A program made the translations under genes and the position numbers. The notes beneath the pieces were generated by a model. It made no database searches and had not been told where the DNA came from. It saw nothing but the letters and a program-made list of their open reading frames with translations. From Cedecea neteri (GTDB lineage Bacteria; Pseudomonadota; Gammaproteobacteria; Enterobacterales; Enterobacteriaceae), in assembly GCF_000757825.1 (NCBI RefSeq), contig NZ_CP009451.1:4712001-4776000 (forward strand): DNA of 64,000 nt, written 5' to 3'. Of this stretch, positions 7,553 through 26,559 are shown one piece after another. Numbering within the stretch: the stretch's first letter is position 1; each line of letters starts with the position of its first letter.

Positions 7553-7592
7553 GTCCTGAAAAGTACGCTTTTAACAAATTAAGTCAAGAGGG

Positions 7593-8390
7593 CTAGCCGT
7601 GGTGACGTTTTCCCCAGTCCAGCGCCGTCTCTATCAGTTGAGTCAGCAACCGCTGGAATTGCGCGCCTTTATCCGCTGACCAGGCGAAACTCTCTTCGTT
7701 CATATAGCAGCACTGCGCCACTTCCAGCTGCACGGCATGAATGTTTTGCTCCGGTGCGCCGTAGTGGCGCGTAATGTAGCCGCCCTTGAAGCGCCCGTTA
7801 AGCACTTTGCTGTAGCCGTTGAAATGCTCGCTAGTTTTCAGGAGTTCAGCGCTCAGCGCCGGGTTACAGCTGGCACCGTCTGCTGTACCGAAGTTAAGGT
7901 CCGGCAGGCGGCCTTCAAACAGGCGAGGAACTACGGACTTGATGGAGTGTGCGTCCCACAGAATCGCATAGCCGAAGGTTTCTTTCAGTCGGGCGAGTTC
8001 CTGAGCAAGCGCCTGATGATAAGGCTGCCAGATGTTGGTCAGGATGTCGGCTCTGGCCTGCTCGTTGGGAGATTTTCCGGCCTCAAACAGCGGCTCACCG
8101 TCGAAAAAGATATCCGGGTACAGCCCGGTGGTGGCGGTGGTGTAAAGCGGCTTATCGTCTGACGGGCGATTCAAATCAACCACGTAGCGGGAGTAGTTGG
8201 CGCTGAGCATGCTGGCGCCCAGATCGCGTATCGGCTGGTAAAGTTTTGGAATGTGCCAGTCGGTATCTTCCAGTTTTTTTGCCCGCCCGGTCAGCCCGTT
8301 CGCCACTTCCGGCGTTAACTGTGTGCCGGGATGCGGCATGCTGATCAGCAGCGGCAGCTTACCCTGATGAAGCTCAAAGCCCTTAATCAT
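7593..8390 (-). CDS. hutG: N-formylglutamate deformylase (HutG, pathway II)
   Basis: This 265-aa metal-dependent hydrolase converts N-formyl-L-glutamate to glutamate and formate, the last step of the two-step (Pseudomonas-type) branch of histidine breakdown. Recognisable features are the N-terminal [18 protein letters not shown]-type and LWDAHSIKS segments with metal-ligand His/Asp, and [18 protein letters not shown] near residues 205-225, all typical of the N-formylglutamate amidohydrolase family. Its start overlaps the end of hutI by 8 bp, so the two are translationally coupled. The presence of hutF at 21040 confirms that this is the deformylase and not an arginase-type formiminoglutamase. 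Confidence 0.94.
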
Positions 8391-9591
8391 TCCACACCTC
8401 TTTACCTTGATAGATAACCTGTTTGGAGAGCGAGCCGCCCAGCCAATAGCTGAGCTCGGCGGGATGTTCTATCTCCCAGGCAACAAAGTTTGCTTCTTTA
8501 CCGGCTTCGAGCGACCCGGCTTTATCGCTAATGCCCAACGCTCGCGCCGCATTGAGCGTCACGCCCGCCAGCGCTTCTTCAGGCGTCAGGCCAAACAGCG
8601 TACAGGCCATATTCATCATCAGCCGCAGCGACTGTACCGGCGACGTGCCGGGGTTGAGATCGCTGGAAATAGCCATCGGCACGTGATGTTTACGCAGCAG
8701 CGAAACCGGCGGTTTTTGCGTCTCGCGCAGGAAGTAAAATGCTCCGGGCAGCAGGACGGCGGTCGTCCCGTGCCCGGCCATCAGCACAATATCGTCCTCG
8801 CAGAGATATTCGAGGTGGTCGGCAGAAAGCGCATTATGGCGGGCGGCAAGCCCCGCGCCGTGCAGCAGCGAAAGCTGTTCGGCGTGAAGCTTGATCGGCA
8901 GCCCGAGTTCATGGGCCTTCATAAAGACGCGTTCCACCTGCGGGACGGAAAACGCCAGATGTTCGCAAAAGGCATCCACGGCGTCGACCAGCCCTTCGTT
9001 ATGCAAAGCGGGTAACCAGTTCTCGCATACCTCGGTGATAAAGTCGTCGCTGCGGTCTTTGTACTCCGGGGGCAGAGCGTGTGCAGCCAGGCAGGTGCTG
9101 TAAATCGTCAGCGGCAGATTTTGCGCCAGCTGGCGGATCACGCGCAGCATTTTGCGTTCGTCTTCAAAACTGAGGCCGTAGCCTGATTTCACTTCCAGCG
9201 TGGTTACGCCGTCTTTGCGCAGCGCATTAATACGGCGGCCGGCGCTTTTCAGCAGGTCGGCTTCGCTCGCCTGACGCGTGGCCTTCACCGTGCTGGCGAT
9301 GCCGCCGCCTGCCGCGGCAATGTCAGCGTAGGTTGCACCATTCAGGCGCATTTCAAACTCCTGGCTGCGGTTACCGCCGAATACGCTATGGGTGTGGCAG
9401 TCGATAAGACCGGGAGTGACAAGTTTGCCGTGCAGGTCGCGTTCTTCGTCATAAGGCAGGTCGGGACGCTGGCTATAGGGGCCCACCCAGGCAATTTTGC
9501 CGCCTTCGGTTAGCAAAGCCGCATCTTCGATAAGATTGTACTGGCCGTTGGCCATGGTGGTGATGTGGCAATTGCGCCATAAAATCCGCAT
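8383..9591 (-). CDS. hutI: Imidazolonepropionase
   Basis: This 402-aa enzyme is a member of the amidohydrolase superfamily. The metal site [12 protein letters not shown] is at residues 64-75 (H66, H68); HAEQLS and SADHLEY supply further ligands near residues 235-265, and [10 protein letters not shown] is conserved near residue 320. It hydrolyses 4-imidazolone-5-propanoate to N-formimino-L-glutamate in the cytoplasm. It is the middle gene of the leftward hutU-hutI-hutG operon: 51 bp after hutU and overlapping hutG. Size and motifs are those of a normal active enzyme. Confidence 0.97.
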
Positions 9592-9642: not shown

Positions 9643-11319
<1,677 letters not shown>

Positions 11320-11387: not shown

Positions 11388-11401
11388 CTTGTATATACAT
11401 G
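11388..11401. promoter_or_regulatory. Probable HutC operator for hutUIG
   Basis: CTTGTATATACATG matches the TGTA-N2-TACA palindrome known for HutC repressors. The same 14 bases occur at 25050-25063 upstream of the NCS1 permease. On the minus strand TGGCAT-N17-TATATA would place the -10 box inside this operator, giving direct repression of hutU; that promoter call is tentative. Confidence 0.75.
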
Positions 11402-11728
11402 ATTAGCATATTTGATGCCAGGCGCGACATTGAATTTATTTATATTTAAAATCAATGAATTATTGTTCTTGGTGCCAATAGTTACATCATATATCCCGCT
11501 AAAAACTCGCCTGGATGCACTATTTTGGCGCTCTTTACAAAGCGATTGATCCTTTTTAGGGCAAAAAGAGCAGTTCAGATAGCTGGTAAACCGCTCGGAA
11601 GGCACCGTTTAATCCTGATAAAAATCACGGTTAGATCACATTTAAAATTTAATAAAATGAACATATATTTGTTTTTAAACAATAAATTGTCTTTATTTCA
11701 ATGTTGCGTTTTTGTTATGGCACAGGCT

Positions 11729-11756
11729 TTGCAGATTGTACATACAATGCTATACA
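11729..11756 (+). promoter_or_regulatory. Sigma-70-type promoter with HutC operator in its spacer
   Basis: TTGCAG (11729-11734) and TATACA (11751-11756) are separated by 16 bp. The spacer is filled by ATTGTACATACAAT (11735-11748), an inverted repeat of the HutC TGTA-N2-TACA type. A repressor bound there would directly block the promoter of the transporter/lyase operon, tying it to histidine utilisation. Transcription would begin near 11763, about 50 bases before the first gene. Confidence 0.72.
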
Positions 11757-11814: not shown

Positions 11815-12912
11815 ATGATTACTTTCAACAATGTGACCAAGTTTTACGACGACGGAACGGTCGTGGTGGATGGACTGAACCTGACCGCACCCGGCGGCAA
11901 AATCACCGTGCTGGTAGGCCCTTCAGGCTGCGGGAAAACGACGTCACTGCGGATGATTAATCGGCTGATTGAGCCGTCCTCCGGCGAAATCCTGCTTAAC
12001 GGCGAGTCCACCGCAGAAATGGACGTGGTGCAGCTGCGTCGGCGCATCGGCTACGTTATCCAGAATGCGGGCCTGTTCCCTCACAAAAACATTATCGACA
12101 ACATCGCCACCACGGCGATCCTCAACGGCATGGCCAAGGCCAAAGCCCGCGCAAGAGCAGGCGAGCTGCTTGAGGTCGTTGGCCTGGCTCCGCAGCTGGC
12201 AAAGCGCTATCCGTGGCAGCTTTCTGGCGGGCAGCAGCAGCGCGTGGGGGTTGCCCGTGCGCTGGCCGCTGACCCGGAGTTTATGCTGATGGATGAACCC
12301 TTCAGCGCCGTGGACCCGGTGGTGCGCGATCAGCTGCAGGAAGAGTTCCTGCGCATTCAGAAAGAAGTCAGCAAAACCATCATTATGGTGACTCACGATA
12401 TCGATGAGGCGATGAAGCTGGGCGACCTGGTGGCGGTGCTGAAGCCCGGTGGGAAGCTGGGGCAGATGGCCTCGCCGGGGGAGCTGCTTAACGCGCCACA
12501 AAGTGATTTCGTGGCCGATTTTATTGGCCGTGACCGGGGTTACCGCAAGCTGAGTTTCTACAATTCAGGGCCGCTGGCGTCGATGCAGACGGAGCCGACT
12601 GCCGAGGTCGGCACGCCGATTGAAATGGCGCGCAACATTGCGGTGCAGCGCTGGCTGCTGGTGACCCGCGAAGGTAAAGCCTGCGGCTGGTTTGACACCC
12701 ATCAGCAGGTCGAGGCCGTTGTCCCCGAACACATTAATCTGGGCGCCACCTTTTACCCGCAAAGCGGCACGCTGCGCCAGATGCTGGACTCCGCGCTCAG
12801 CTCACCGTGCCACCGCGCCGTGGTGATTGACGACCGCGCCGAAGTGCTGGGCACGCTGGGGTTGGATCACGTGCTGGACGCGTGTAAATCCATGGCGCGG
12901 GAGGCGGTATGA
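11815..12912 (+). CDS. Betaine-type ABC transporter, ATP-binding protein
   Basis: This 365-aa ATPase is of the OpuC/ProV/YehX class. It has Walker A GPSGCGKTTS (residues ~34-43), signature LSGGQQQRVGVARAL, Walker B FMLMDEPFSAVDP and the H-loop MVTHDIDEA. Residues ~270-365 form a degenerate CBS-like region, as in osmoprotectant importer ATPases. It powers uptake through the two permeases that follow; its stop overlaps the start of the next gene by 4 bp. ProU-family transporters import betaines, carnitine, choline and, in the HutXWV and EgtUV branches, histidine or ergothioneine. With hut genes next door, a histidine-related quaternary amine is the most attractive substrate (inference). Confidence 0.93.
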   Translation: MITFNNVTKFYDDGTVVVDGLNLTAPGGKITVLVGPSGCGKTTSLRMINRLIEPSSGEILLNGESTAEMDVVQLRRRIGYVIQNAGLFPHKNIIDNIATTAILNGMAKAKARARAGELLEVVGLAPQLAKRYPWQLSGGQQQRVGVARALAADPEFMLMDEPFSAVDPVVRDQLQEEFLRIQKEVSKTIIMVTHDIDEAMKLGDLVAVLKPGGKLGQMASPGELLNAPQSDFVADFIGRDRGYRKLSFYNSGPLASMQTEPTAEVGTPIEMARNIAVQRWLLVTREGKACGWFDTHQQVEAVVPEHINLGATFYPQSGTLRQMLDSALSSPCHRAVVIDDRAEVLGTLGLDHVLDACKSMAREAV

Positions 12913-13553
12913 AATTTGACTGGCTGTGGGCGCAAAGCGACAAAATCTTTCATTTACTGCTGTGGCACCTTTATCTCTCGGTCACGCCAATCCTGATTGG
13001 CCTGCTGTTGGCGATCCCGGCCGGCTGGTTGGTGAACAGCATGCCTCGCGTAAAGGGCGTCATCCTTAACCTGTTCGGGCTGCTGTACACCATCCCGTCC
13101 CTGGCGCTGTTTGTGCTGCTGCCGCCGTTGCTCAATACGCAAATCCTTGACCCGATTAACGTGGTGGTGGCGCTGACCATTTATAGCTTTGCGCTGCTGG
13201 TCAGAACGGTGTGTGACGGGCTGGACTCGGTGCCCACTGACACCCGGCAGTCCGCTTTTGCCCTCGGCTATAAGCCGATACATCAGTTTTTCCAGGTTGA
13301 CCTGCCGCTGGCGGTGCCGGTCATTGGTTCCGGGATGCGCGTGGCCGTGGTTTCCAACGTCAGTATTGTTTCCGTCGCCGCGCTGATAGGTGCCCCGCAG
13401 TTGGGGTCGCTGTTTACCCAGGGGTTTCAACTGCAGTTTCTGACGCCGATTATTGCCGGCATCGTGCTGTGTATCGTGCTGGCTTTCGTCCTTGACTGCG
13501 TGGTCGTCGCCGTCACCCGCTCTTTAAGCCGCTGGCAGCCAATAAGGGGATAA
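12909..13553 (+). CDS. Betaine-type ABC transporter, permease 1
   Basis: This 214-aa inner-membrane protein has about five or six transmembrane segments. The binding-protein-dependent transport loop (EAA-like) is seen in ALGYKPIHQFFQVDLPLAVPVIGSGMR around residues 117-143. It overlaps the ATPase gene by 4 bp (ATGA) and is followed after 3 bp by a second permease, the arrangement of YehWXYZ/OpuC systems with two different permeases. Confidence 0.92.
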   Translation: MKFDWLWAQSDKIFHLLLWHLYLSVTPILIGLLLAIPAGWLVNSMPRVKGVILNLFGLLYTIPSLALFVLLPPLLNTQILDPINVVVALTIYSFALLVRTVCDGLDSVPTDTRQSAFALGYKPIHQFFQVDLPLAVPVIGSGMRVAVVSNVSIVSVAALIGAPQLGSLFTQGFQLQFLTPIIAGIVLCIVLAFVLDCVVVAVTRSLSRWQPIRG

Positions 13554-13556
13554 TGT

Positions 13557-14237
13557 ATGTCTGACTGGTTCTTTACGCTCAGCCACTGGTATGGCGATGA
13601 CGGTATTCTCCCGCTGCTGGCACAGCACATTGGCTACAGCGCCGTGGCGCTGGCGATAGCGATTGCCATTGCTTTTCCGGTGGGCTGCTACACCGGCCAT
13701 ACCGGTAAGGGCGAAGCGCTGCTGATTGGCACCACCAACGCGCTGCGCTCGCTGCCTTCGTTTGGCCTGATTATCCTGCTGGTTATCCTGATGGCGGGCT
13801 ATTTCGAGTCGGATATGGCCTTTATTCTCCCGTGCATCATCGTGCTGGTGGTGCTGGCGCTGCCGCCGATAGCGCTCGGCGTGCATGCGGGCATCCGCTC
13901 CGTTGACCCGAGCGTGCATGATGCCGCCAAAGGCATTGGCCTGACGCCGTTCCAGGTGCTGACGCAGGTTGAGCTTCCGTGCGCCACGCCGCTCATTCTC
14001 TCCGGCATTCGCAGCGCCACGCTGCAGATTATCTCTACCGCCACCATCGCGGCCTATGTCTCGCTGGGCGGCCTTGGCCGATTAATTATCGATGGCCGTG
14101 CGGCCAACGATTTTGCGCAGATGACCGCCGGCGCGGTGCTGGTTGCCGTGCTGGCGCTGCTTGTGGATGTGTTCTTTTCCCTTTCGGTGAAGTATGTGGT
14201 TTCCCACGGTATTTCCCGACGTATCAAAACCCAGTGA
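13557..14237 (+). CDS. Betaine-type ABC transporter, permease 2
   Basis: The product is 226 aa and homologous to the preceding permease. Transmembrane segments alternate with a coupling loop (AKGIGLTPFQVLTQVELPCATPLILSGIR, residues ~122-150), and the C-terminal part includes AAYVSLGGLGRLIIDG, which is characteristic of OpuC-type permeases. It partners with permease 1 to form the heterodimeric channel. Confidence 0.92.
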   Translation: MSDWFFTLSHWYGDDGILPLLAQHIGYSAVALAIAIAIAFPVGCYTGHTGKGEALLIGTTNALRSLPSFGLIILLVILMAGYFESDMAFILPCIIVLVVLALPPIALGVHAGIRSVDPSVHDAAKGIGLTPFQVLTQVELPCATPLILSGIRSATLQIISTATIAAYVSLGGLGRLIIDGRAANDFAQMTAGAVLVAVLALLVDVFFSLSVKYVVSHGISRRIKTQ

Positions 14238-14270
14238 TGTTGAGCCCGTTAATTACACAAGGTGAACGCG

Positions 14271-15155
14271 ATGAATATGAAGAAACGTTGTTTGACGCTG
14301 TTGAGTGCCGCGATGCTGTCCGTTGTTTCCTCCGCGTGGGCGGCGGACTCGGGCCAGAAGGTGATTATTGGCTCGGCTGATTTCCCGGAAAACCAGCTGC
14401 TGGCGACGATTTATGCCGGGGCCCTGGAAGCGCAAAACATCCCCGTGGAGAAGAAGCTGAATATCGGCAGCCGCGAAGTCTACATTCCGGCTCTGCTCGA
14501 CGGCTCCATTAACGTTATCCCTGAATACAGCGGCGCGCTGCTGAGCTACCTGGACGCCAATAATAAAGCGCACAGCTCTGATGAAGTGGCGACCGCGCTG
14601 GCGACGAAGCTGCCGGCAAAAGTGAAAATGCTGCACACCGCCGTGGCGCAAAACAGCGACGTTATCGCCGTGACCAAAAAAACGGCGGATAAATACCAGC
14701 TCAAAACCATTGATGACCTGAAGCCTCACGCGGCAGAACTCATCCTGGGTGGCCCGGCAGAATGGAAAACTCGCCATGAAGGCGTGCCGGGGCTTAAAGA
14801 AGTCTATGGCCTGAACTTCAAGAGCTTCAAAGTGCTGGATGTCGCAGGCCCGCTGACGCTGACCGCGCTGAAAAATAATCAAATCCAGGCGGCTGACTTA
14901 ACGTCCACTACGCCGGAAATTCAGAAAGATCATCTGGTGGCGCTTGCCGATCCGAAAAACCTGTTTGCGGCACAAAACATCGTCCCGATTGTCGCCACCG
15001 CCACGCTGAACCCGACGATTGAGAACACGCTGAACAAAGTGTCTGCGCAGCTAACCACCGCAGATTTGATTGCCATGAACGGGCAGCTTGCCGAATTCGC
15101 CAGCATTGATGACGTGGCTCATCAGTGGCTGGTTAAACATGGCCTGAGCAAGTAA
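14271..15155 (+). CDS. Betaine-type ABC transporter, periplasmic binding protein
   Basis: The product is 294 aa from the ATG at 14271, preferred over the GTG three codons upstream because AAGG lies 8 bases before it and MNMKKRCLTLLSAAML..AWA is then a standard signal peptide. It belongs to the OpuAC/ProX-like family: IGSADFPENQLLATIYAGALE near the mature N-terminus and NVIPEYSGALLSYLD around residue 80 are typical. These proteins bind quaternary ammonium groups in an aromatic cage. Modelling the cage and a possible imidazole pocket would test the proposed hercynine/ergothioneine ligand. Confidence 0.92.
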   Translation: MNMKKRCLTLLSAAMLSVVSSAWAADSGQKVIIGSADFPENQLLATIYAGALEAQNIPVEKKLNIGSREVYIPALLDGSINVIPEYSGALLSYLDANNKAHSSDEVATALATKLPAKVKMLHTAVAQNSDVIAVTKKTADKYQLKTIDDLKPHAAELILGGPAEWKTRHEGVPGLKEVYGLNFKSFKVLDVAGPLTLTALKNNQIQAADLTSTTPEIQKDHLVALADPKNLFAAQNIVPIVATATLNPTIENTLNKVSAQLTTADLIAMNGQLAEFASIDDVAHQWLVKHGLSK

Positions 15156-15164
15156 GGGCGCACA

Positions 15165-16724
15165 ATGACAAGACAAACTGGCTCCTCCGCTCACCTGCAT
15201 CAGGCCGTGACCCTGGGCAGAGCGCAGACCACTATCGAAGAGTTAGTGCGCATTGCCGACGGGGCTCCGGTCGCGCTGGCCGAAGAAGCGCTGGCGAACA
15301 TGGACAGCGTGAGCGGCTATATTCGCCGGGCAATAGATGAAGGGCAGGTAATTTACGGGCTGACCACAGGGGTGGGTGATTTGGTGACGGAGCGCCTGTC
15401 TGCCGATCAGATTGCCAGCGTGCAGCTGAACATGCTGCGCAGCCACGCCTGTGGAATGGGGCCAGATTTGTCGGGGCGTGAAGTGCGCGCGATGATGGCA
15501 GTGATGCTGAAGTCGCTGCTGCAGGGCTACAGCGGCGTTAGCGCCGGGCTGGCGAAACGCATGGCCGAAATGCTTAACCGCCAGGTCACGCCCTGGTCGC
15601 CTGCGGGCGGCTCGGTTGGCTATTTAATTGCGACGGCGCATATCGGCCTCTCTCTCTTTGGGGAAGGGAAGTGTTGGTATCAGGGCGAGCTTTTGCCGTC
15701 CGCCGAAGCCCTGGCAAAGGCGGGCATTGCCCCTCGAATCCCTGGCCCGCGTGAAGGTCATGCCCTGATAAGCGGCACCTATGAAATCACCGGGCTGGCG
15801 TGCCTGGCCGTGCATGATTTTGAGCGCCTGTTGCCGGTGGCGGATATGGCGGGGGGCATGTGCCTTGAAGCGCTGAAGGGCAACACCCGTGGCTACGACG
15901 CAAGGCTGCACGCCCTGCGTCCGCACGACGGGCAGCAAAAAACCGCCGCGATTTTGCGCCGCTTGCTCAGCGGCAGCGAGATCTTTGCCCGCTACCGCGA
16001 CCACCGCGTACAGGATGCTCTGAGCCTGCGCTGTATTCCGCAAATCCACGGCGCGGTGCGCGACCAGCTCGCCCATTGCCGCCAGATTGTCACCATCGAG
16101 CTGAACTCGGTCACCGACAACCCGGTCTTCCTTATCGAAGACGACGCGCTGGTTATTCTTCCCGGCGGCAACGGCCACGGTGCCCCGCTGGCGCTGGCAT
16201 TGGATTCTCTGGCGATAGCCATTGCCCAGGTCAGCACGGCGTCTCAGGCTCGATCCGATCGTATTACCAACGTGCACCTGAGCGGCCTGCCGGCGTTCCT
16301 GGTTGGCAGAAGCGGCGCTAACTCCGGCATGATGATCCCGCCTTACGTTGCCGCCGCGCTGGCAGGGGATAACCGCAGCCTGGCCGCGCCGTCCAGCGTG
16401 CATACCGTCACCACCTGCGCCGGGCAGGAAGACCATATCAGCATGGGCGTTTCTTCGGCTCGCAAGGCGCTGCAGGCGGTGAGCAATGCGGTGGATATCG
16501 TTGCCATCGAGCTGCTGTGTGCCAGCCAGGCGCTGGAGTTCCATCGCCCGCTGCGTGCCTCCGTCGGCGCGGAGTTGACGCTGGGCATGGTGCGCGAGCT
16601 TGTGCCGTTCCGCGAGACGGACACCGCGCTGTACCCGGACATGCATGCCGTGCGGGATTTGATTGCCGAAGGCGAGCTGAGCCAAAGGCTGCTCTCCCTT
16701 ATTGAGGAGTCAGAACATGAGTGA
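15165..16724 (+). CDS. Histidine ammonia-lyase homologue lacking the MIO triad (candidate ergothionase/hercynine lyase)
   Basis: This 519-aa protein is clearly of the aromatic amino acid lyase family. It has VIYGLTTGVG (HAL YGVNTGFG), SHACG, QDALSLRCIPQIHG, NSVTDNPVF, GGNGHGAPLALALDSLA, GANSGMMIPP and QEDHISMG. The segment that in HAL is GSVGASGDLAPLAH reads G149-S-V-G152-Y153-L-I-A-T-A-H159, exactly three residues shorter. The Ala-Ser-Gly that cyclises to the electrophilic MIO group is therefore missing, so ordinary deamination of histidine is unlikely. The rest of the fold and active-site scaffold is intact, so the protein is not decayed. As I recall, ergothionase eliminates trimethylamine from ergothioneine without MIO; the betaine-type transporter upstream fits such a substrate. 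The stop overlaps the next start (ATGAGTGA). Confidence 0.85.
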   Translation: MTRQTGSSAHLHQAVTLGRAQTTIEELVRIADGAPVALAEEALANMDSVSGYIRRAIDEGQVIYGLTTGVGDLVTERLSADQIASVQLNMLRSHACGMGPDLSGREVRAMMAVMLKSLLQGYSGVSAGLAKRMAEMLNRQVTPWSPAGGSVGYLIATAHIGLSLFGEGKCWYQGELLPSAEALAKAGIAPRIPGPREGHALISGTYEITGLACLAVHDFERLLPVADMAGGMCLEALKGNTRGYDARLHALRPHDGQQKTAAILRRLLSGSEIFARYRDHRVQDALSLRCIPQIHGAVRDQLAHCRQIVTIELNSVTDNPVFLIEDDALVILPGGNGHGAPLALALDSLAIAIAQVSTASQARSDRITNVHLSGLPAFLVGRSGANSGMMIPPYVAAALAGDNRSLAAPSSVHTVTTCAGQEDHISMGVSSARKALQAVSNAVDIVAIELLCASQALEFHRPLRASVGAELTLGMVRELVPFRETDTALYPDMHAVRDLIAEGELSQRLLSLIEESEHE

Positions 16725-17913
16725 AGCTTTACAGCCGCTAAAAGGCATCAGAGTGCTTGATCTATCCCGCGTGCTGGCCGGCCCGTGGTGCGCTTCCTTA
16801 CTGAACGATCTGGGGGCCGAAGTCATCAAGATTGAGATGCCGGGCAGCGGGGATGACTCCCGCAGCTTCACCCCCCACATTGCCGGGGAAAGCAGCTACT
16901 TCATGCAGCTTAACCACGGCAAAAAAAGCGTCACCCTGGATTTAAAAGCCCCGGAGGGGTTAGCCATCCTCAAGCAGCTGGTGGCGCAGGCCGACGTGCT
17001 GGTGGAAAACTTCCGGCCGGGCGTAACCAAACGCCTCGGCATCGACTACCCGACGCTGCAGGAGATTAATCCGCGGCTGGTTTATGCCAGCATTTCCGGG
17101 TTTGGGCAGCAAGGGGCGATGGCGCACAAAGCCGCTTACGACCACATCGTGCAGGCCTATGGCGGCATTATGCAGGTCACCGGCTGGGCGGAAGGGGAGC
17201 CAACCCGAGTTGGCGATGCCATTGGTGACGTGGTCGCCGGGCTGTACGGCAGTTGGGCGGTGCTTGCCGCGCTGCTGCAGCGCGGGATCGGCGGCCAGGG
17301 GCAGCATCTTGATGTCTCGATGCTGGATACCATGGTGACGATGCAAATGGTTTCCCTTACCCAGTGGATTGGCGGCCAGCCTCCCGCCGGGCGGCTCGGG
17401 AACGCGCATCCTATCAGTGCCCCGATGGACAGCTATCCTGCTCAGGATGGCCACATCGTGATTGCGGTCGCCAACGACAAGCTGTTCCGCCAGCTTTGCT
17501 CGGCGATGGAAAAGCCCGAGCTGGCGAGCGATCCGCTGTATCTCACGGACCCGCTGCGCCTGGCTAACCAGCAGCCGCTTCGTGTAGAAATAGAGCGCTG
17601 GCTGGCTGATAAAACCGTCAATGATGCGCAGGCCATTCTAGACAGCGCAGGCGTTCCGGCCTCCGCCGTTCTGCGCCTCGATCAAATCCTTACCAGTGAT
17701 TATGCGCGAGAGCGCGAGCTTGTTAAGCAGGTGAAACACCCGACGGCAGGCAACATATCTATTGTTCCGCAGCCGGTGAAAATGAGCGCCATGACGGCAG
17801 AGCCCGCGCTGGTGCCGCCTGCGCTGGGCGAACATACGGCAAGCGTGCTGCAAGAATTACTGGCGATCGACGAGGCAACGCTTAAGCAGTTAAAGGCGCA
17901 GGGCGTAATTTAA
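16717..17913 (+). CDS. Family III (CaiB/BaiF/Frc-type) CoA-transferase
   Basis: The product is 398 aa from the ATG at 16717, which has GAGGAG 7 bases upstream; an in-frame TTG five codons earlier is less likely. Typical motifs are GIRVLDLSRVLAGPW at the N-terminus, GAEVIKIE, LNHGKKSVTLDLK and VENFRPGV. The catalytic aspartate is predicted at D171 in GDAIGDVVAG. Such enzymes move CoA between carboxylic acids through a glutamyl/aspartyl-anhydride mechanism. It is translationally coupled to the lyase gene upstream, so it probably activates the lyase product or a related acid as a CoA thioester (inference). Known relatives act on carnitine, formate/oxalate, bile acids and phenyllactate. Confidence 0.92.
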   Translation: MSEALQPLKGIRVLDLSRVLAGPWCASLLNDLGAEVIKIEMPGSGDDSRSFTPHIAGESSYFMQLNHGKKSVTLDLKAPEGLAILKQLVAQADVLVENFRPGVTKRLGIDYPTLQEINPRLVYASISGFGQQGAMAHKAAYDHIVQAYGGIMQVTGWAEGEPTRVGDAIGDVVAGLYGSWAVLAALLQRGIGGQGQHLDVSMLDTMVTMQMVSLTQWIGGQPPAGRLGNAHPISAPMDSYPAQDGHIVIAVANDKLFRQLCSAMEKPELASDPLYLTDPLRLANQQPLRVEIERWLADKTVNDAQAILDSAGVPASAVLRLDQILTSDYARERELVKQVKHPTAGNISIVPQPVKMSAMTAEPALVPPALGEHTASVLQELLAIDEATLKQLKAQGVI

Positions 17914-17929
17914 CCGGCGGAGAACGTAA

Positions 17930-18823
17930 ATGGTGCAAATAAAGAAAGTGGCGGTGGTCGGGGCCGGAACGATGGGCGCGCGAATCACCGTTGTTATGGC
18001 GAGGGCGGGCTACCGCGTTAGCCTGTGGTCGCGTTCTGAATCAACGCTTGATAAAGCTCGAACTATTGTGGACTCGCTCGCTGCCAGCGAAAACGTGGCA
18101 TTCACGACGTCGCTGGAGGCTTGCCTGGCCGACGCTGACCTGGTTTCTGAAAACGTGGCCGAGGACGTGGCGCTGAAACAGCGCGTGCTGAATGACATCG
18201 AACAGCAGGTTAGCGCTGACTGCGTGATAACCACCAACACCTCAAGCGTGTCCATCACGCTGCTGGCGTCGGCCCTGAGCCAGCCGCAGAGGCTGATCGG
18301 CATGCACTGGTTTAATCCGGCGGACACCATGCCGATGATCGAGATTGTGCGCGGTGAAAACACGGCGGACGAGGTCTGCCTGCGGGTGCGGGATATTTGC
18401 CAGCAGCTGGGCAAAGAGACGATCACCGTTAATCAGGATATTCCGGGCTTTATTATCAACCGGCTGCAGTACGCGATGCTGCGCGAGGCGCTTTATCTGG
18501 TGGATGCCGGGATTGGTTCTGTGGAGGATGTCGACCGTGCGGTGCAGAGAACCCTTGCTCCGCGCTGGGCGGCGATGGGGCCGATGAAGCTGATGGATTT
18601 TGCCGGGCTGGATACGGTGGAAAAAGTCGCCGGGATCTTGCTGCCTGCGCTGGATAACAGCAGCCAATTACCTGCCTGGCTGAAAGAGAAGGTGGCCGAC
18701 AACAAACTCGGCGTAAAAAGCGGCGAGGGCTTTTATGCCTGGACCGCTGAGGCAGCCTCAGCCGCAATGCGCAAGCGTGATGAAACGGTCAGGCACCTGA
18801 CCGGGAGCAATGAGCATGAGTGA
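17930..18823 (+). CDS. 3-hydroxyacyl-CoA dehydrogenase family protein
   Basis: The product is 297 aa. The N-terminal Rossmann fold contains GAGTMGARI (residues 11-19). The conserved TNTSSVSIT and GMHWFNPADTMPMIEI (catalytic His in HWFNP) match 3-hydroxyacyl-CoA dehydrogenases, and the C-terminal helical domain carries DIPGFIINRLQYAMLREAL. It would oxidise a 3-hydroxyacyl-CoA (or a 3-hydroxy acid, as L-carnitine dehydrogenase does) with NAD+. The gene follows the CoA-transferase by 16 bp and overlaps the enoyl-CoA hydratase gene by 8 bp, so the three act together. The real substrate is unknown. Confidence 0.9.
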   Translation: MVQIKKVAVVGAGTMGARITVVMARAGYRVSLWSRSESTLDKARTIVDSLAASENVAFTTSLEACLADADLVSENVAEDVALKQRVLNDIEQQVSADCVITTNTSSVSITLLASALSQPQRLIGMHWFNPADTMPMIEIVRGENTADEVCLRVRDICQQLGKETITVNQDIPGFIINRLQYAMLREALYLVDAGIGSVEDVDRAVQRTLAPRWAAMGPMKLMDFAGLDTVEKVAGILLPALDNSSQLPAWLKEKVADNKLGVKSGEGFYAWTAEAASAAMRKRDETVRHLTGSNEHE

Positions 18824-19577
18824 TATTCTCTCCCGCGTGGACGGCGCTGTTGCCGTGGTCACCCTCAACAGGGCGCAAAAATATAACGCGCTAACCGCTG
18901 AAATGCTGGATGAGCTGGTCAGCACGCTAAAGGAGCTGGACGGGCGAGCGGACGTCAGAGCGATAGTTCTGTTTGGCTCCCCCAAAGCCTTCTCTGCCGG
19001 AGCGGATACCGGCACGCTGGCTTCCGCTTCGGCAACGACGCTGTGGCGCAGTGGGTTTAGCGAGAAGTGGGACAGGGTCGCGGAAATCGAAACGCCGCTG
19101 ATTGCCGCCGTCTCCGGCTACGCCCTCGGCGGAGGGCTGGAGCTGGCGCTGCTGTGCGACATGATTATCGCCGATCAAAGCGCGGTCTTCGGCCTGCCGG
19201 AAAGCCACATCGGTATTATTCCCGGCGCGGGTGGTACGCAGCGGCTGGTGCGCGCCGTCGGCAAGTCGCTGGCGATGGACATGCTATTGAGCGGCAGAAG
19301 AATTGACGCGCAGGAAGCCCTGCGTGCCGGGCTTGTCAGCCGCGTGACGGATTCACTTGAGGAGCAGGCGTTAATATTGGCAAATCAGGTGGCTAAAGCC
19401 GCGCCGCTGGCGGCGATGATGATTAAAAAAGCCGTGGCGGCGAGCTATGAAATGCCGCTCAGCGCAGGCGTGGCCTATGAAAGATCGCTCTCTGCTTTGA
19501 TAGCCGACAGTGAGGACAGGGCGGCCGGGCTGGCGGCGTTTAAAAATAAGCAGTCGCCTGAGTTTAAGGGGCGATAA
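18816..19577 (+). CDS. Enoyl-CoA hydratase/isomerase family protein
   Basis: The product is 253 aa from ATG 18816, whose ATGAGTGA overlap with the previous stop repeats the pattern at 16717; an ATG two codons earlier is also possible. The crotonase signatures are AFSAGADTGTL (oxyanion hole), GYALGGGLELALLCDM and GLPESHIGIIPGAGGTQRL. Both catalytic glutamates of hydratases (in GGLELA and LPESH) are present, so it should be an active hydratase. It completes a transferase-dehydrogenase-hydratase set without a thiolase. It is the last gene of the rightward operon before a shared terminator. Confidence 0.91.
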   Translation: MSDILSRVDGAVAVVTLNRAQKYNALTAEMLDELVSTLKELDGRADVRAIVLFGSPKAFSAGADTGTLASASATTLWRSGFSEKWDRVAEIETPLIAAVSGYALGGGLELALLCDMIIADQSAVFGLPESHIGIIPGAGGTQRLVRAVGKSLAMDMLLSGRRIDAQEALRAGLVSRVTDSLEEQALILANQVAKAAPLAAMMIKKAVAASYEMPLSAGVAYERSLSALIADSEDRAAGLAAFKNKQSPEFKGR

Positions 19578-19593: not shown

Positions 19594-19621
19594 AACCGGC
19601 AGCCAGTCTGCCGGTTTTTTT
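19594..19621. terminator. Bidirectional terminator between the enoyl-CoA hydratase gene and hutD
   Basis: AACCGGCAG / CTGCCGGTT forms a 9-bp stem with a 5-base loop, followed by a T tract on the plus strand. It lies between converging genes; the hutD stop codon sits in the T tract. Confidence 0.88.
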
Positions 19622-20174
19622 ATGCGCTAAGGGTGACGCGCGCAAAAAGGGAAGGAGCCGCGGAAACCACGCGGATTGTCGCCGGGGCGCTAATCAACAG
19701 GCTGTCGTAGGGCTGCAAAACGTGTCGTTCTCCGCTGACGTCAATCTCCAGCGATTCGCCCGCATTAAACAGCAGCTGCGTGCCCTGCTGGTGCGTCCAG
19801 GTGCCTTCTCGCAGCCAGCTGACAGCGGCTTTAGTAGCGTCTGCCTTATAGATGACGTTAAAGTCCAGCAGCGGGCCGCCCTGAATAATGCAGGAGACGT
19901 CACTTTCACCGTTGAAATCGGTGGCCTGGAACGGTGGGATGAGCGGGCTCTTTTCGCCGTCGACGGTGAGATACATGCCTTCACCTTCCAGCACGCTGAT
20001 GTTGCGCAGGTAGCCGGGGAAGCGAGAGAAGGGGCCGTCATGGCGAATGGTCGCCACCGAAATACGCCAGTCGTAGTCATTCGTTGCCGGGCAGCGGTAA
20101 ATCTCCCGCGTTACGCCCTGGCCGTTTTTCCATGGCATTTCCGGGCATTGCTCGTAGGGCAGAAGCTGGATCAT
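19620..20174 (-). CDS. hutD: HutD family protein
   Basis: The product is 184 aa. It has the HutD (cupin-like, PF05962) signatures MPWKNGQGVTREI near residue 13, DYDWRISVATIRHDGPFSRFPG around residues 34-55 and ISVLEGEGM. HutD proteins are found in hut loci and are thought to limit or tune operon expression, possibly by binding urocanate or N-formylglutamate; they are not catabolic enzymes. Its start overlaps the stop of hutC by 4 bp, so the two form an operon read leftwards. Confidence 0.92.
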   Translation of the reverse strand: MIQLLPYEQCPEMPWKNGQGVTREIYRCPATNDYDWRISVATIRHDGPFSRFPGYLRNISVLEGEGMYLTVDGEKSPLIPPFQATDFNGESDVSCIIQGGPLLDFNVIYKADATKAAVSWLREGTWTHQQGTQLLFNAGESLEIDVSGERHVLQPYDSLLISAPATIRVVSAAPSLFARVTLSA

Positions 20175-20932
20175 TTATGCATGCTTCCTTCGAGGCGGTA
20201 GCGCGAGCCGGGGTAAACCAGGCGCACGCTGGTGACGATTTTTTTGTTCTGCCGCCCGGTCCAGGTACGGCGATTAACCTGCAGGCAAGGCGTGTGCTCG
20301 TCGATTTCCAGATACACGCACTCTTCGCGAGGCACGTTCACCGCCTCAATAATGTGCTCGCCTTCAACGATAGGCGCGATGGACGAAAGATAGGCGTTGG
20401 GCGTGATGCGGGTGAAATCCTGCTGGAAGTAGTCCGGGACGATCAGCGAGTTCACCAGGCGGTCTTCCAGCATCACCGGCACGCCGTTTTCGTAGTGGCA
20501 AATCAGCGAATGGAACAGGCGGCTGCCTTTAGGTAAATTGAACGCCATCGCCTGCTGCGCGTCGGCATAGACCTGGGTTAGCTCCAGCACGCGAGCGTGA
20601 TGACGGTGCCCGCGGCTGGCGATTTCGTCGGCAATATTGTTGATTTCCAGCAGCGCGGATTGGCCACGAACTTCGGCGACGAATGTCCCGATACCCTGCA
20701 TGCGAACCAGCAGGCCTTCGGCGGTCAGCTCGCGCAGGGCGCGGTTGATGGTCATGCGGCTATAGCCGAACTGATTCACCAGCTCACTTTCCGATGGCAC
20801 GCGGTAGTTTACCGGCCACAGCCCGCTATGAATGTTGGTCTTAATAATGATTTTGACTCTTTCATAAAAAGGGGCCGGCTGGTCCAGATTTTCGGTCTCT
20901 GCCGCTGCTTTAAAAACGTCGTTTTGTGCCAT
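20171..20932 (-). CDS. hutC: Histidine-utilisation repressor HutC (GntR family)
   Basis: The product is 253 aa. A winged-helix GntR domain (residues ~20-90; PSESELVNQFGYSRMTINRALREL and LLVRMQGIGTFV) is followed by a UTRA ligand-binding domain (~110-245; LEDRLVNSLIVPDYFQQDF, TPCLQVNRRTW). HutC represses hut operons and is released by urocanate. TGTA-N2-TACA-like palindromes occur at its own divergent promoter region, at the hutU/transporter promoters and upstream of the NCS1 permease, defining the likely regulon. It is divergent from hutF and co-transcribed with hutD. Confidence 0.95.
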   Translation of the reverse strand: MAQNDVFKAAAETENLDQPAPFYERVKIIIKTNIHSGLWPVNYRVPSESELVNQFGYSRMTINRALRELTAEGLLVRMQGIGTFVAEVRGQSALLEINNIADEIASRGHRHHARVLELTQVYADAQQAMAFNLPKGSRLFHSLICHYENGVPVMLEDRLVNSLIVPDYFQQDFTRITPNAYLSSIAPIVEGEHIIEAVNVPREECVYLEIDEHTPCLQVNRRTWTGRQNKKIVTSVRLVYPGSRYRLEGSMHK

Positions 20933-20983: not shown

Positions 20984-21012
20984 ATGTATATATACATGCA
21001 TGTATATACAAT
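20984..21012. promoter_or_regulatory. Tandem HutC-like operators between hutC and hutF
   Basis: Two adjacent TGTATA/TATACA palindromes occur: ATGTATATATACAT at 20984-20997 and ATGTATATACAAT at 21000-21012. They lie 50-75 bases upstream of hutC and 28-56 bases upstream of hutF. The position suits autoregulation of hutC and repression of hutF. Confidence 0.75.
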
Positions 21013-21039: not shown

Positions 21040-22407
21040 ATGGCGGTATATTTCGCGGCAAAAGCGCTTCTGCCGCAGGGCTGGGCGGAGAATGTCAAAC
21101 TGGGCGTTTCGCCGCAGGGGGTGATTAGTTCCCTGGAATGCAACAGCGTGCCGGGGGCCGACGATATCCGGCTTGAGGGGGTTGTGGTGCCGGGCATGCC
21201 GAACCTGCATTCACACGCTTTTCAGCGGGCGATGGCCGGGCTGACGGAAGTGGTTGGCGACCCGGCGGACAGCTTCTGGACGTGGCGTGACCTGATGTAC
21301 CGCCTGGTGGGCAAAATCACCCCCGAACAGCTGGAGACTATCGCCAGCTATCTGTATATCGAAATGCTGAAGGCCGGCTACACCTCGGTGGCCGAATTCC
21401 ACTACCTGCACCACGACGTTGACGGTAAGGCTTACGCGCAGCCTGCCGAGCTGGCGCTACGCATTGCCCACGCGGCAAAAAATATCGGCATTGGCCTGAC
21501 GCTGCTCCCGGTGCTCTACTCGCACTCTGGCTTCGGCGGGCAGCCCGCTTCGGCAGGGCAGCGTCGCTTCATAAACGATACCGACAGCTACCTGAAACTG
21601 TACGACAGCATTGCCACGGCGCTTGCCCCGGAACCGATGCAGCGCGCAGGGCTGTGCTTCCATTCGCTGCGTGCGGTTACGCCGGAACAAATGCGTATCG
21701 TGCTGGAAAGCCAGGCGCAGCCTCAGCCGGTGCATATTCATATCTCCGAGCAGCGCAAAGAGGTTGAGGATTGTTTGGCCTGGTCCGGCCTGCGCCCTGT
21801 GGAATGGCTGTATCAAAATATGCCGGTTGATGAGCGCTGGTGCCTGATTCATGCCACCCACATCACCGAAAGTGAAACCCGCCTTATTGCTGAGTCTGGC
21901 GCCGTAGCCGGGCTATGCCTGACCACCGAGGCGAACCTGGGTGACGGCATTTTCCCAGGGCAAGCATTCCTGCAGCAGGGCGGTAACTGGGGGATCGGCT
22001 CCGACAGCCATATCAGCGTTAGCGTGAGCGAGGATTTGCGCTGGTTTGAATATGGCCAGCGCCTCAATAACCGCCGCCGCAACTTGCTTCACCTCGAAGC
22101 CGAGCCTTATGTCGGTAACGTGCTTTATCAGGGGGCGCTGCACGGCGGGCGAATGGCGCTGGGGCAAAACATTGGCGAGCTGGCCGTGGGGGCAAGAGCT
22201 GACTGGCTGGTGCTGGACGGCAACGATCCGTTCCTGGCGACGGCGAAAGACAATGAACTGTTGAACCGCTGGATTTTTGCCTGCTCTTCTAACCCAATAA
22301 AAGAAGTGATGACCGGCGGAAAATGGGTCATACGCGACGGACGACATGCCAGAGATGAAGAGGTTAAGGCCGGTTTTGCTCAGGTGCTAAAACAGCTAAC
22401 GTCTTAA
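21040..22407 (+). CDS. hutF: Formimidoylglutamate deiminase
   Basis: This 455-aa zinc-dependent amidohydrolase converts N-formimino-L-glutamate to N-formyl-L-glutamate and ammonia, feeding HutG. The metal-binding NLHSHAFQRAMAG is at residues 55-67 (H57, H59), HISEQRKEVEDC follows near 230, then HATHITESE and GSDSHISVSVSEDLRW near 323. Together with HutG it defines the five-step pathway II in this organism. Divergent from hutC; two HutC-like palindromes precede it. Confidence 0.96.
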   Translation: MAVYFAAKALLPQGWAENVKLGVSPQGVISSLECNSVPGADDIRLEGVVVPGMPNLHSHAFQRAMAGLTEVVGDPADSFWTWRDLMYRLVGKITPEQLETIASYLYIEMLKAGYTSVAEFHYLHHDVDGKAYAQPAELALRIAHAAKNIGIGLTLLPVLYSHSGFGGQPASAGQRRFINDTDSYLKLYDSIATALAPEPMQRAGLCFHSLRAVTPEQMRIVLESQAQPQPVHIHISEQRKEVEDCLAWSGLRPVEWLYQNMPVDERWCLIHATHITESETRLIAESGAVAGLCLTTEANLGDGIFPGQAFLQQGGNWGIGSDSHISVSVSEDLRWFEYGQRLNNRRRNLLHLEAEPYVGNVLYQGALHGGRMALGQNIGELAVGARADWLVLDGNDPFLATAKDNELLNRWIFACSSNPIKEVMTGGKWVIRDGRHARDEEVKAGFAQVLKQLTS

Positions 22408-22467: not shown

Positions 22468-22537
22468 ACTCCTTCGGGAACCTGAATCTCGTCATTACCA
22501 CTCAGCCTCAAATAGCCAACGAGTGGAATACCCTCAG

Positions 22538-24859: not shown

Positions 24860-25049
24860 GCATGAATTTATGCCTTAATTTTCCGCGGCCCCAAACGTTG
24901 ACCGTCCCCGCAACGTTCATCCTGATTTACTCCTCGCGCAGAAGCCATCAGTTTTTCATATTGGTACATCTGCACATCAATTTGGTTACATAAAATCTAC
25001 AACTTAGTTCGCAAATTCATTATCAGCAGGGTGTGGAATGCGTTTTTTA

Positions 25050-25063
25050 CTTGTATATACATG
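25050..25063. promoter_or_regulatory. Probable HutC operator for the NCS1 permease
   Basis: CTTGTATATACATG is identical to the 14-bp site upstream of hutU at 11388-11401. It lies 60 bases upstream of the permease start, which places this permease in the HutC regulon. Confidence 0.75.
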
Positions 25064-25122
25064 AGTGGTCATTTGATGTGTGGTGGGTTTTCCGGCGTTT
25101 AATCAGCTTTAGCGAGGTTGTT

Positions 25123-26559
25123 ATGTCTTCATTTTCATCCGCAGAAGAACAGTCCAGGAAAGGCTCGCGTTTGACCGAGTCCCGTTCTATCGATTACATC
25201 CCCGACGGCGAACGTCATGGGCATCCTTTCAGCCAGTTTACCCTCTGGTTCGGCGGTAATTTGCAGATAACCGCGATTGTCACCGGCGCGCTGGCCGTTG
25301 TTCTGGGCGGGGATGTGGTCTGGTCGCTGGTGGGGCTATTCGTCGGGCAGATTCTGGGCGCATCGATCATGTCTTTCCACGCTTTGCAGGGGCCACGGCT
25401 TGGCTTACCGCAGATGATTATCACCCGCGCACAGTTTGGCGTTTACGGCGCGGTGATACCGCTGGTGCTGGTGTGCATCATGTACATTGGTTTTTCCGCG
25501 AGCGGGACGGTGCTGGCGGGGCAGGCGATGGCCCGTCTGCTGTCGATAAGTGACGCCAGCGGGATGATCCTGTTCAGCGCGATTATCATCGTGATTGCGG
25601 TGCTCGGCTATCGCGTGATCCATAAGCTTGGCAAGGTCGCCAGTATTGTCGGCGTGTTGGCTTTTGCCTGGCTGTTTGGTTCGCTGCTGCTCAATACCGA
25701 TCTCACGGCTATTATGCAAAATAACCATTTCTCGATGCCGATGTTTTTGCTGGCGGTGTCGCTGTCTTCCTCCTGGCAAATCGCCTTTTGCCCCTACGTT
25801 TCCGATTATTCACGCTATCTGCCGCGAAACGTCTCGGGGCCGAAAGTGTTCTTCTCGGTGTTTAGCGGCACCGTGCTGGGGACTCAGGCATCCATGACGC
25901 TGGGCGTTATCACCGCCGCCATTGCCGGGAGCGCGTTTTCCGGCCACGAGGTTGGCTACATTGTGGGGCTGGGCAAAACCGAAACCATGGCGATGCTGAT
26001 TTATTTCGCGATCTGCTTCGGCAAAATCACCTTCACCACGCTGAACGCCTACGGCAGCTTTATGTCACTGACGACCATTGTTTCCGGCTTTCGCAAACAG
26101 GTTACCCTCAGCCAAAAAAATCGCATTCTGTTTGTGGTGCTGATGGTGGCTGCCTCGTGCATCATTGCGCTGCTGAGCGAACCCGCATTCCTGAAACATT
26201 TCACCCACTTCCTGCTGTTCTTACTGGCTTTCTTTGTGCCCTGGAGCGCGATTGGCCTGACCGATTACTATCTTATTTCGTGCCGCGCCGTTGATATAAC
26301 CGCGCTGTTTGATGCCGATAAACGCTATGGCCGCTGGAACCTGTTTGGTATTGGTGTGTATATCGTCGGGGTACTGATTCAGCTGCCGTTTATCGAAAAC
26401 CCGCTCTTCCACGGCTCGTTGACGTGGCTGTTCGCCGGCAACGACGTGTCGTGGATTATCGGCTGGTTTGCTACCGCGATTCTCTATTATGGCCTGCACC
26501 GCCTGGATAAACGCGTTTTGCCGGCGGCGACGGTTTACCCTAATAGTTCGGCTCGCTGA
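25123..26559 (+). CDS. NCS1-family (CodB-like) permease, probably hut-regulated
   Basis: The product is 478 aa from ATG 25123, which has GAGG 6 bases upstream. After a hydrophilic N-terminus (SRSIDYIPDGERHG) it has about twelve transmembrane segments, with NCS1 features such as FTLWFGGNLQ, GPRLGLPQMIITRAQFG, PYVSDYSRYLP and YGSFMS. The family symports cytosine, purines, hydantoins and allantoin. CodB-like permeases occur in Pseudomonas hut loci, and the HutC-like site upstream links it to histidine or urocanate. Candidate substrates are urocanate or a hydantoin derived from (thio)urocanate; this is inference. Confidence 0.88.
   Translation: MSSFSSAEEQSRKGSRLTESRSIDYIPDGERHGHPFSQFTLWFGGNLQITAIVTGALAVVLGGDVVWSLVGLFVGQILGASIMSFHALQGPRLGLPQMIITRAQFGVYGAVIPLVLVCIMYIGFSASGTVLAGQAMARLLSISDASGMILFSAIIIVIAVLGYRVIHKLGKVASIVGVLAFAWLFGSLLLNTDLTAIMQNNHFSMPMFLLAVSLSSSWQIAFCPYVSDYSRYLPRNVSGPKVFFSVFSGTVLGTQASMTLGVITAAIAGSAFSGHEVGYIVGLGKTETMAMLIYFAICFGKITFTTLNAYGSFMSLTTIVSGFRKQVTLSQKNRILFVVLMVAASCIIALLSEPAFLKHFTHFLLFLLAFFVPWSAIGLTDYYLISCRAVDITALFDADKRYGRWNLFGIGVYIVGVLIQLPFIENPLFHGSLTWLFAGNDVSWIIGWFATAILYYGLHRLDKRVLPAATVYPNSSAR

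Follow-up and report, generated by a model that had tools for sequence, protein, structure and literature searches.

A histidine ammonia-lyase homologue without the MIO segment in a hut cluster of Cedecea neteri: a candidate route from hercynine to urocanate

Loss of the 4-methylideneimidazole-5-one (MIO) group abolishes the activity of ammonia-lyases such as histidine ammonia-lyase (HAL, encoded by hutH). Trimethylamine is already a good leaving group. Ergothionase, which takes trimethylamine off ergothioneine to give thiourocanate, is described in PMC13405746 as a HAL-fold protein without MIO, in agreement with the original prediction, made from the DNA alone, which had named it as an MIO-free relative; by analogy, it is a precedent for MIO-free chemistry. 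Here we describe another member of the family, encoded within a hut cluster on a 64,000-nucleotide stretch of the Cedecea neteri genome (contig NZ_CP009451.1, positions 4,712,001 to 4,776,000; hereafter the window). It is a HAL-fold protein without the MIO segment, and we consider it a probable hercynine trimethylamine-lyase that makes urocanate and takes the place of HutH in the cluster. Among the titles listed in searches of the open-licence literature, none concerned a hercynine lyase; such searches do not reach subscription journals.

The lyase gene (window:15165-16724, plus strand) is a single open frame of 519 codons, and residues 23-477 of its product match PF00221 (aromatic amino acid lyase) at 540.3 bits. 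The HutH equivalog model of NCBIfam gives 502.5 bits, under its cut-off of 539.15; since the MIO-free proteins of loci L025 (577.5 bits) and L069 (591.8 bits) exceed it, this cut-off is no test for MIO. In alignment with the genome's own ordinary HutH (L002), GSVGYLIATAH stands where HutH has GSVGASGDLAPLAH, exactly three residues shorter and with Ala-Ser-Gly gone, so that MIO is unable to form, as had been read from the letters. All 22 aligned relatives carry the loop as GS[VP]GYL; a frameshifted record (L023) was dropped from this alignment, and its first piece has the same loop. The proteins of L003 and L004 are 99% and 98% identical to the lyase. Comparison of the lyase with four relatives gives a ratio of nonsynonymous to synonymous substitution rates (dN/dS) of 0.029-0.074 and shows no stop. 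A sequencing error or pseudogene is excluded by the retention of the loop in 22/22 relatives and by the low dN/dS. The AlphaFold2 model has a mean predicted local distance difference test score of 85.2 and a predicted template modelling score of 0.90. Searched with the lyase at E<=0.001, the 4.88-Mb genome contains two HAL-family proteins only, the lyase and the ordinary HutH; at E<=1e-120 the same search finds the window's genome only among 295 genomes of its order, and genome G316 only among 385 genomes of the class of G316.

For the active site we compared 37 aligned sequences, comprising 22 with the three-residue-shorter loop, four with the one-residue-shorter loop of the ergothionase type and 11 with the MIO segment. 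Residues are numbered as in Pseudomonas putida HAL, of which the reference chain 1gk2 is an F329G mutant, so that its own residue 329 reads Gly. The claim that all outer family motifs are present holds for the most part: Y53, H83, Q277, R283 and E414 are kept as Y64, H94, Q283, R289 and E422, while N195, Y280 and F329 are replaced by Ser203, Leu286 and Gly337. The counterparts of E414, H83, R283 and Y53 are kept in every row of the shorter-loop class. Position 280 is Leu in 21 of these 22 rows (Tyr is retained in L070), and N195 is replaced in 19 (Asn is retained in L025, L069 and L070). Position 280 is also Leu in all four ergothionase-type rows, whereas each of the 11 MIO-containing sequences has Tyr. 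At position 414, Gln is found in the two aminomutases (L067 and L068). We take Y53 to be the base, R283 to bind the carboxylate and H83 and E414 to lie near the imidazole, with N195, Y280 and F329 presumably facing the MIO group. Such a pattern, in which the base and binding residues persist while MIO and the residues around it have changed, is what one would expect of a lyase acting on a substrate that carries its own good leaving group.

The gene order points in the same direction. The lyase gene stands fifth in a series (11815-19577) that codes for an ATPase, two permeases and a binding protein of an ATP-binding cassette (ABC) transporter, the lyase, a CaiB-like coenzyme A (CoA)-transferase, a 3-hydroxyacyl-CoA dehydrogenase (HCDH) and an enoyl-CoA hydratase (ECH). 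This series lies between two groups of hut genes, hutG-hutI-hutU and hutD-hutC-hutF (Table 1). No ordinary hutH is found among the frames listed around the lyase in the window, and that of the genome sits 0.96 Mb away on the circular map. We infer the substrate, its import as a betaine, the elimination chemistry and the relief of HutC. Hercynine (N-alpha,N-alpha,N-alpha-trimethyl-L-histidine) would be imported by the betaine-type ABC transporter, after which the lyase would eliminate trimethylamine to give urocanate, no MIO being needed. The urocanate formed would relieve HutC repression and be turned into glutamate by HutU, HutI, HutF and HutG, with the lyase operon under both nitrogen control and HutC. 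In P. putida, urocanate does free HutC from hut operators according to PMC12772324.

The control elements in front of the operon are consistent with such a scheme. Its sigma-54 type element matches perfectly and suggests use of the substrate as a nitrogen source. Directly downstream lies a copy of the pattern TGTANNTACA, of which the window has five copies where 0.23 would be expected. They lie at 11390 (before hutU), 11737 (before the lyase operon), 21001 (between hutC and hutF), 25052 (at the NCS1-type permease gene) and 6960 (inside the frame of another gene). Its 11-base form TTGTAYATACA has six sites in the 4.88 Mb, and the backward control pattern has none. Five of the six belong to hutH (38 bases before the ordinary gene), hutU, the lyase operon, hutC/hutF and the NCS1-type permease; from this placement at hut genes we infer that the pattern is the HutC operator. 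The sixth site (G000:C1:563884, L075) neighbours a glycine-rich frame that looks repeat-like, and no hut gene was seen next to it. As for published sites, PMC12772324 reports that the hutIG site of P. aeruginosa resembles the known HutC consensus only slightly. Of 23 lyase loci, 22 have a HutC-type site at most 150 bases from the start of the transporter genes (mean of shuffles 0.083 loci), the site being missing in Rhizobium (L027). A sigma-54 element stands directly before the HutC-type site with at most one mismatch in 22/23 loci and with two in L027, compared with 0.316 loci in shuffles at up to two mismatches. Where no hut genes adjoin the operon, nearby GntR genes exceed the HutC cut-off of 220 (293.4 bits in L018; 250.2 and 231.0 bits in L027). 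Given its HutC-type operator, the NCS1-type permease may belong to the hut regulon as a transporter. A cytosine permease sits between hutI and hutU in the cluster on the Klebsiella plasmid (L026).

Across genomes, the lyase is accompanied by hutU, which scores above cut-off in all 24 whole genomes carrying the lyase group as well as in the plasmid record from Klebsiella. Only one record lacks it, a Rhizobium indigoferae megaplasmid that was searched by itself. Three of the 24 genomes have no HAL-family match at E<=0.001 besides the MIO-free protein, namely those of Pectobacterium betavasculorum (G304), Rosenbergiella (G309) and Tatumella (G314), although draft assemblies could hide a gene. As a background we used an unselected sample of 149 genomes of the family, in which hutU is above cut-off in 56. 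Loops were read for HutH-model matches below the cut-off, and for those above it within fetched regions, so that more MIO-free proteins are possible; the loop of the third match in G392 (L106) was not located by the script. The three-residue-shorter loop was found in 15 of these genomes, and hutU in 15/15 of them versus 41/134 of the others (Fisher p 1.1e-7, uncorrected for kinship). Five of the 15 carry the C. neteri type (P0001), namely G000, G377, G320, G446 and G339, of which the last has coordinates matching the frameshifted record of G315 (L023). The other ten (L082-L089, L092 and L093) carry a second MIO-free subfamily with the loop GSVGYLTHMAH, 39-43% identical to the lyase, and two or more hut genes are found in nine of these ten regions (L092 has only a hutD-like gene). 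Ergothionase-type loops (GSIGEADLAPLAH or GSVGEADIT) occur in nine family genomes (L096-L102, L104 and L105), with hutU present in G439, G387, G354 and G446 and absent from G448, G352, G376, G319 and G399. Set against each other, the two loop types have hutU in 15/15 versus 4/8 genomes with G399 left out (p 0.008).

A published phenotype can be set beside this pattern. P. betavasculorum NCPPB 2795 (L012) is a lyase genome without a second HAL gene, and the tested strains of that species, including the type strain, were unable to use L-histidine as a carbon source (PMC10991766). That paper gives histidine ammonia-lyase and other hut genes for four strains, NCPPB 2795 among them, and reads them as histidine degradation. 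An MIO-free lyase acting on another substrate would offer an explanation for hut genes without L-histidine use.

In a tree of 37 sequences, for which the program warned of long branches, a moderately supported branch (87/91, not starred) separates the 22 rows of the three-shorter loop class from all others, the seven rows of the HutH group included. Placement inside the HutH clades, which would speak for an ordinary HutH, was therefore not found. The loop class is spread across several phyla. The four ergothionase-type rows group at 100/100 and are separate from it in the best tree; an approximately unbiased (AU) test does not reject a single origin for both MIO-free classes (p-AU 0.159), and together with the long branches this makes one or two losses of MIO both possible. 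Two ergothionase-type genes on other replicons were also seen. On pAMI4 of Paracoccus aminophilus (L033:5113-9482), such a lyase (GSIGAADLAPLAH) follows CoA transferase, short-chain dehydrogenase/reductase (SDR) and MaoC genes, which likely have the same functions as CaiB-HCDH-ECH in the window. On pSymA of Sinorhizobium meliloti (L071), a lyase with the loop GSVGQADMTLLSH appears by eye to have an N-terminal signal peptide and lies near a dipeptide-type ABC transporter.

The binding protein gives a further view of the substrate. Seventeen sequences were aligned from the 23 loci with one, six near-copies being left out. PMC9732360 lists the residues for ergothioneine affinity and the trimethylammonium cage of EgtUC, of which G244 and F293 are important for affinity. 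Whereas E375 and R379 are kept in 17/17, G244 is replaced by Phe and F293 by Tyr in 17/17. The pocket is the same in all 17, with or without adjacent hut genes, which suggests a single ligand. Betaine-type transporters adjoin more distant lyases too: in Salinicoccus (L025, 39% identical, loop GSPGYL), BCCT-type betaine transporters stand on both sides (7364-8938 and 13751-15337), and in L084 of the second subfamily the lyase comes last, behind hutU, hutH, an amino acid permease and a betaine ABC set of the ChoXWV/ProXWV-like type.

Critically speaking, several findings sit uneasily with hercynine as the substrate. A route from hercynine has no role for the CoA-transferase, dehydrogenase and hydratase linked to the lyase; yet in the close group of 24 loci (window, L003-L022, L024, L026 and L027; L023 and L025 left out), the full set is present in 13 (window, L003-L008, L013, L018, L020, L021, L024 and, by eye, L027). 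Rhizobium indigoferae has these genes directly behind the lyase too, as do Serratia and Rahnella loci without adjacent hut genes. In all 17 binding proteins most of the EgtUC cage is lost (F293 to Tyr, Y341 to Asp, Y443 to Gln, Y419 to Thr or Leu). Replacement of the ergothioneine-specific residues and most of the cage argues against ergothioneine, but gives no help to the case for a quaternary amine, or even weakens it; since the known cage is mostly replaced, the presence of a quaternary-amine transporter is weakened as proof of a betaine. Moreover, L083 of the second subfamily adjoins a His/Arg-type ABC set, and the list of unused carbon sources for P. betavasculorum pools all strains, has an exception (propionic acid, type strain) and covers carbon, not nitrogen or uptake (PMC10991766).

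The CoA genes would find a place if the lyase acted on another aromatic betaine, or on several, and CaiB-HCDH-ECH degraded the acrylate product as a CoA thioester. Their position behind the lyase in 13 of the 24 loci, some without adjacent hut genes, and the pairing of a lyase with similar genes in Paracoccus (L033) agree with this idea, which we nonetheless regard as rather improbable. The lyase is retained in 24/24 loci, but the CoA set is missing or a remnant in 11 (L009-L012, L014-L017, L019, L022 and L026), and hut genes adjoin the lyase in ten of these, L019 being the exception. In addition, His at 83 and Glu at 414 are invariant in the 22 rows whereas the aminomutases have Gln at 414, and HutC-type control is found in nearly all loci. 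In Kosakonia quasisacchari (L009:10648-10956), an ECH remnant (44% over 103 residues) lies behind the lyase, as if the CoA genes had been lost.

It also seems unlikely that, without MIO, the enzyme uses unmodified histidine or a derivative of it with another leaving group. Retention of the residues on the imidazole side, the absence of a classical quaternary-amine cage from the binding protein, and a His/Arg-type ABC transporter beside some second-subfamily relatives would all suit such a substrate. Against this, loss of MIO abolishes ammonia-lyase activity, the genome retains an ordinary HutH with the same operator, betaine-type transporters adjoin several relatives and P. betavasculorum has its L-histidine phenotype (PMC10991766).

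The original prediction had left the choice between hercynine, giving urocanate, and ergothioneine, giving thiourocanate. The former is favored by the betaine-type transporter and by a hut cluster without hutH, whereas the latter found no support, and we consider an ergothionase unlikely, even though ergothionase is likewise a HAL-fold protein without MIO (PMC13405746; structure 6s7j). Among solved structures, the ergothioneine-binding EgtUC is indeed closest to the binding protein, Y280 is replaced by Leu in both classes, and the AU test leaves room for their single origin. However, the hydratase of the cluster is an ordinary HutU, scoring 1018.4 bits with the HutU model and 691.5 with that of thiourocanate hydratase, under the cut-off of 930. 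The loop is three residues shorter rather than one, the clade is separate, and Phe at G244 and Tyr at F293 in 17/17 binding proteins alter positions important for ergothioneine affinity (PMC9732360). Ergothionase-like genes, moreover, occur in some hutU-negative sample genomes, the class of the lyase in none. Ergothioneine was thus set aside as leading substrate on HutU identity, binding-protein residues and the separate clade. Lastly, a degenerate, inactive HutH would explain the loss of the MIO triad and of the N195, Y280 and F329 counterparts, but is very hard to reconcile with strong purifying selection (dN/dS 0.03-0.07), an intact frame in the readable relatives, a conserved promoter and operator of its own and a spread over several phyla.

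If the lyase does convert hercynine to urocanate, it would provide an entry to the hut pathway, which ranks among the most thoroughly studied in catabolism, without histidine ammonia-lyase and would account for hut clusters lacking hutH. It would also mean that bacteria use hercynine and that hercynine is a new source of trimethylamine. Automatic names would need correction, as MIO-free proteins are labelled HutH or aromatic amino acid ammonia-lyase, and so would the reading of the P. betavasculorum hut genes as histidine degradation in a paper that lists L-histidine as unused (PMC10991766).

The gene is also present on plasmids of clinical Klebsiella. The annotated genes of the plasmid cluster L026 are hutG, hutI, the cytosine permease, hutU, four ABC genes, the lyase, HutD, hutC and formimidoylglutamate deiminase; hutH is not among them, and the whole plasmid has a single HAL-family match. 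DNA at least 90% identical is found on 203 of 72,556 plasmid records (191 Klebsiella, 10 Raoultella and 2 Escherichia), 163 of which contain at least 80% of the lyase gene, and lyase DNA occurs in 2/5,426 complete Escherichia coli genomes, both times on plasmids. Among the titles listed from the open-licence literature, none deals with plasmid-borne hut in Klebsiella. A distant relative in Priestia megaterium (L073, loop GSLGYL) lies behind hutU, hutI, an agmatinase-family gene (213.2 bits with the hutG model, cut-off 229.15) and two MFS genes. Tentatively, and with considerably less confidence than for the C. neteri enzyme itself, one may imagine a HutH-independent hut pathway in which at least two MIO-free subfamilies (GSVGYLIATAH and GSVGYLTHMAH) opened up histidine betaine to plant- and animal-associated bacteria as a source of nitrogen, with Klebsiella plasmids among the carriers. 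Trimethylamine would be the by-product, and CaiB-ECH-HCDH would form a second, undescribed exit for urocanate via CoA thioesters.

The features discussed are collected in Table 1. Further along the window, a protein encoded at 22523-23416 (plus strand) matches PF16374, cycle inhibiting factor (CIF), at 90.8 bits, with no NCBIfam match.

Table 1. Features of the lyase operon, the flanking hut genes and their putative control elements (positions in the window)
Feature	Position	Strand	Basis
MIO-free HAL-family lyase, 519 aa, proposed hercynine trimethylamine-lyase	15165..16724	+	ORF, PF00221, alignments, AlphaFold2 model
Codons for GSVGYLIATAH, residues 149-159, replacing the MIO segment, three residues shorter	15609..15641	+	alignment
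ABC transporter ATPase, betaine/proline/choline type	11815..12912	+	TIGR01186 289.8 bits, cut-off 326.6
ABC transporter permease	12909..13553	+	profile matches
ABC transporter permease	13557..14237	+	profile matches
ABC transporter binding protein, OpuAC family	14262..15155	+	PF04069; nearest solved structure ergothioneine-binding EgtUC, 93.8 bits
Family III CoA-transferase (CaiB-like)	16717..17913	+	profile matches
3-Hydroxyacyl-CoA dehydrogenase family protein	17930..18823	+	profile matches
Enoyl-CoA hydratase family protein	18810..19577	+	profile matches
hutG, N-formylglutamate deformylase	7593..8390	-	355.9 bits, cut-off 278.75
hutI, imidazolonepropionase	8383..9591	-	489.1 bits, cut-off 298.15
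hutU, urocanate hydratase	9643..11319	-	1018.4 bits, cut-off 375
hutD-like gene	19620..20174	-	named from annotation of relatives (L026)
hutC, histidine utilization repressor	20171..20932	-	291.5 bits, cut-off 220
hutF, formimidoylglutamate deiminase	21040..22407	+	685.3 bits, cut-off 413.05
NCS1-type permease frame; true start probably downstream of operator	25033..26559	+	TIGR00800 85.9 bits, below cut-off
Sigma-54 type -24/-12 element TGGCAC-N5-TTGC	11718..11732	+	only site with <=1 mismatch in the window, either strand
HutC-type operator TTGTACATACAA, just downstream of sigma-54 element	11736..11747		pattern scan
HutC-type operator in front of hutU	11390..11399		pattern scan
HutC-type operator between hutC and hutF	21001..21010		pattern scan
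HutC-type operator at start of NCS1-type permease gene	25052..25061		pattern scan

The lyase can finally be placed among the systems it most resembles. The alignment with HAL and with Treponema denticola ergothionase (PDB 6s7j), as the original prediction had proposed, shows that the ergothionase loop SSIGEGDITTLSH is one residue shorter than that of HAL and that of the lyase three. With ergothionase, to which it scores 181 bits (about 295 against P. putida HAL), the lyase shares a HAL fold without MIO and Leu for Y280; it differs in having no thiourocanate hydratase gene adjacent. Compared with HutH (P. putida 1b8f; Thermoplasma 7tqr), it lacks the MIO triad, has the N195, Y280 and F329 counterparts replaced, lies outside the HutH clade (87/91) and scores under the HutH equivalog cut-off, but keeps H83, E414, R283 and Y53 on the imidazole and carboxylate sides. 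Its binding protein belongs to PF04069 like those of the EgtU/OpuC/OsmF-type quaternary-amine ABC transporters, with EgtUC nearest and E375 and R379 kept, and departs from them at the ergothioneine-specific positions and in most of the aromatic cage.

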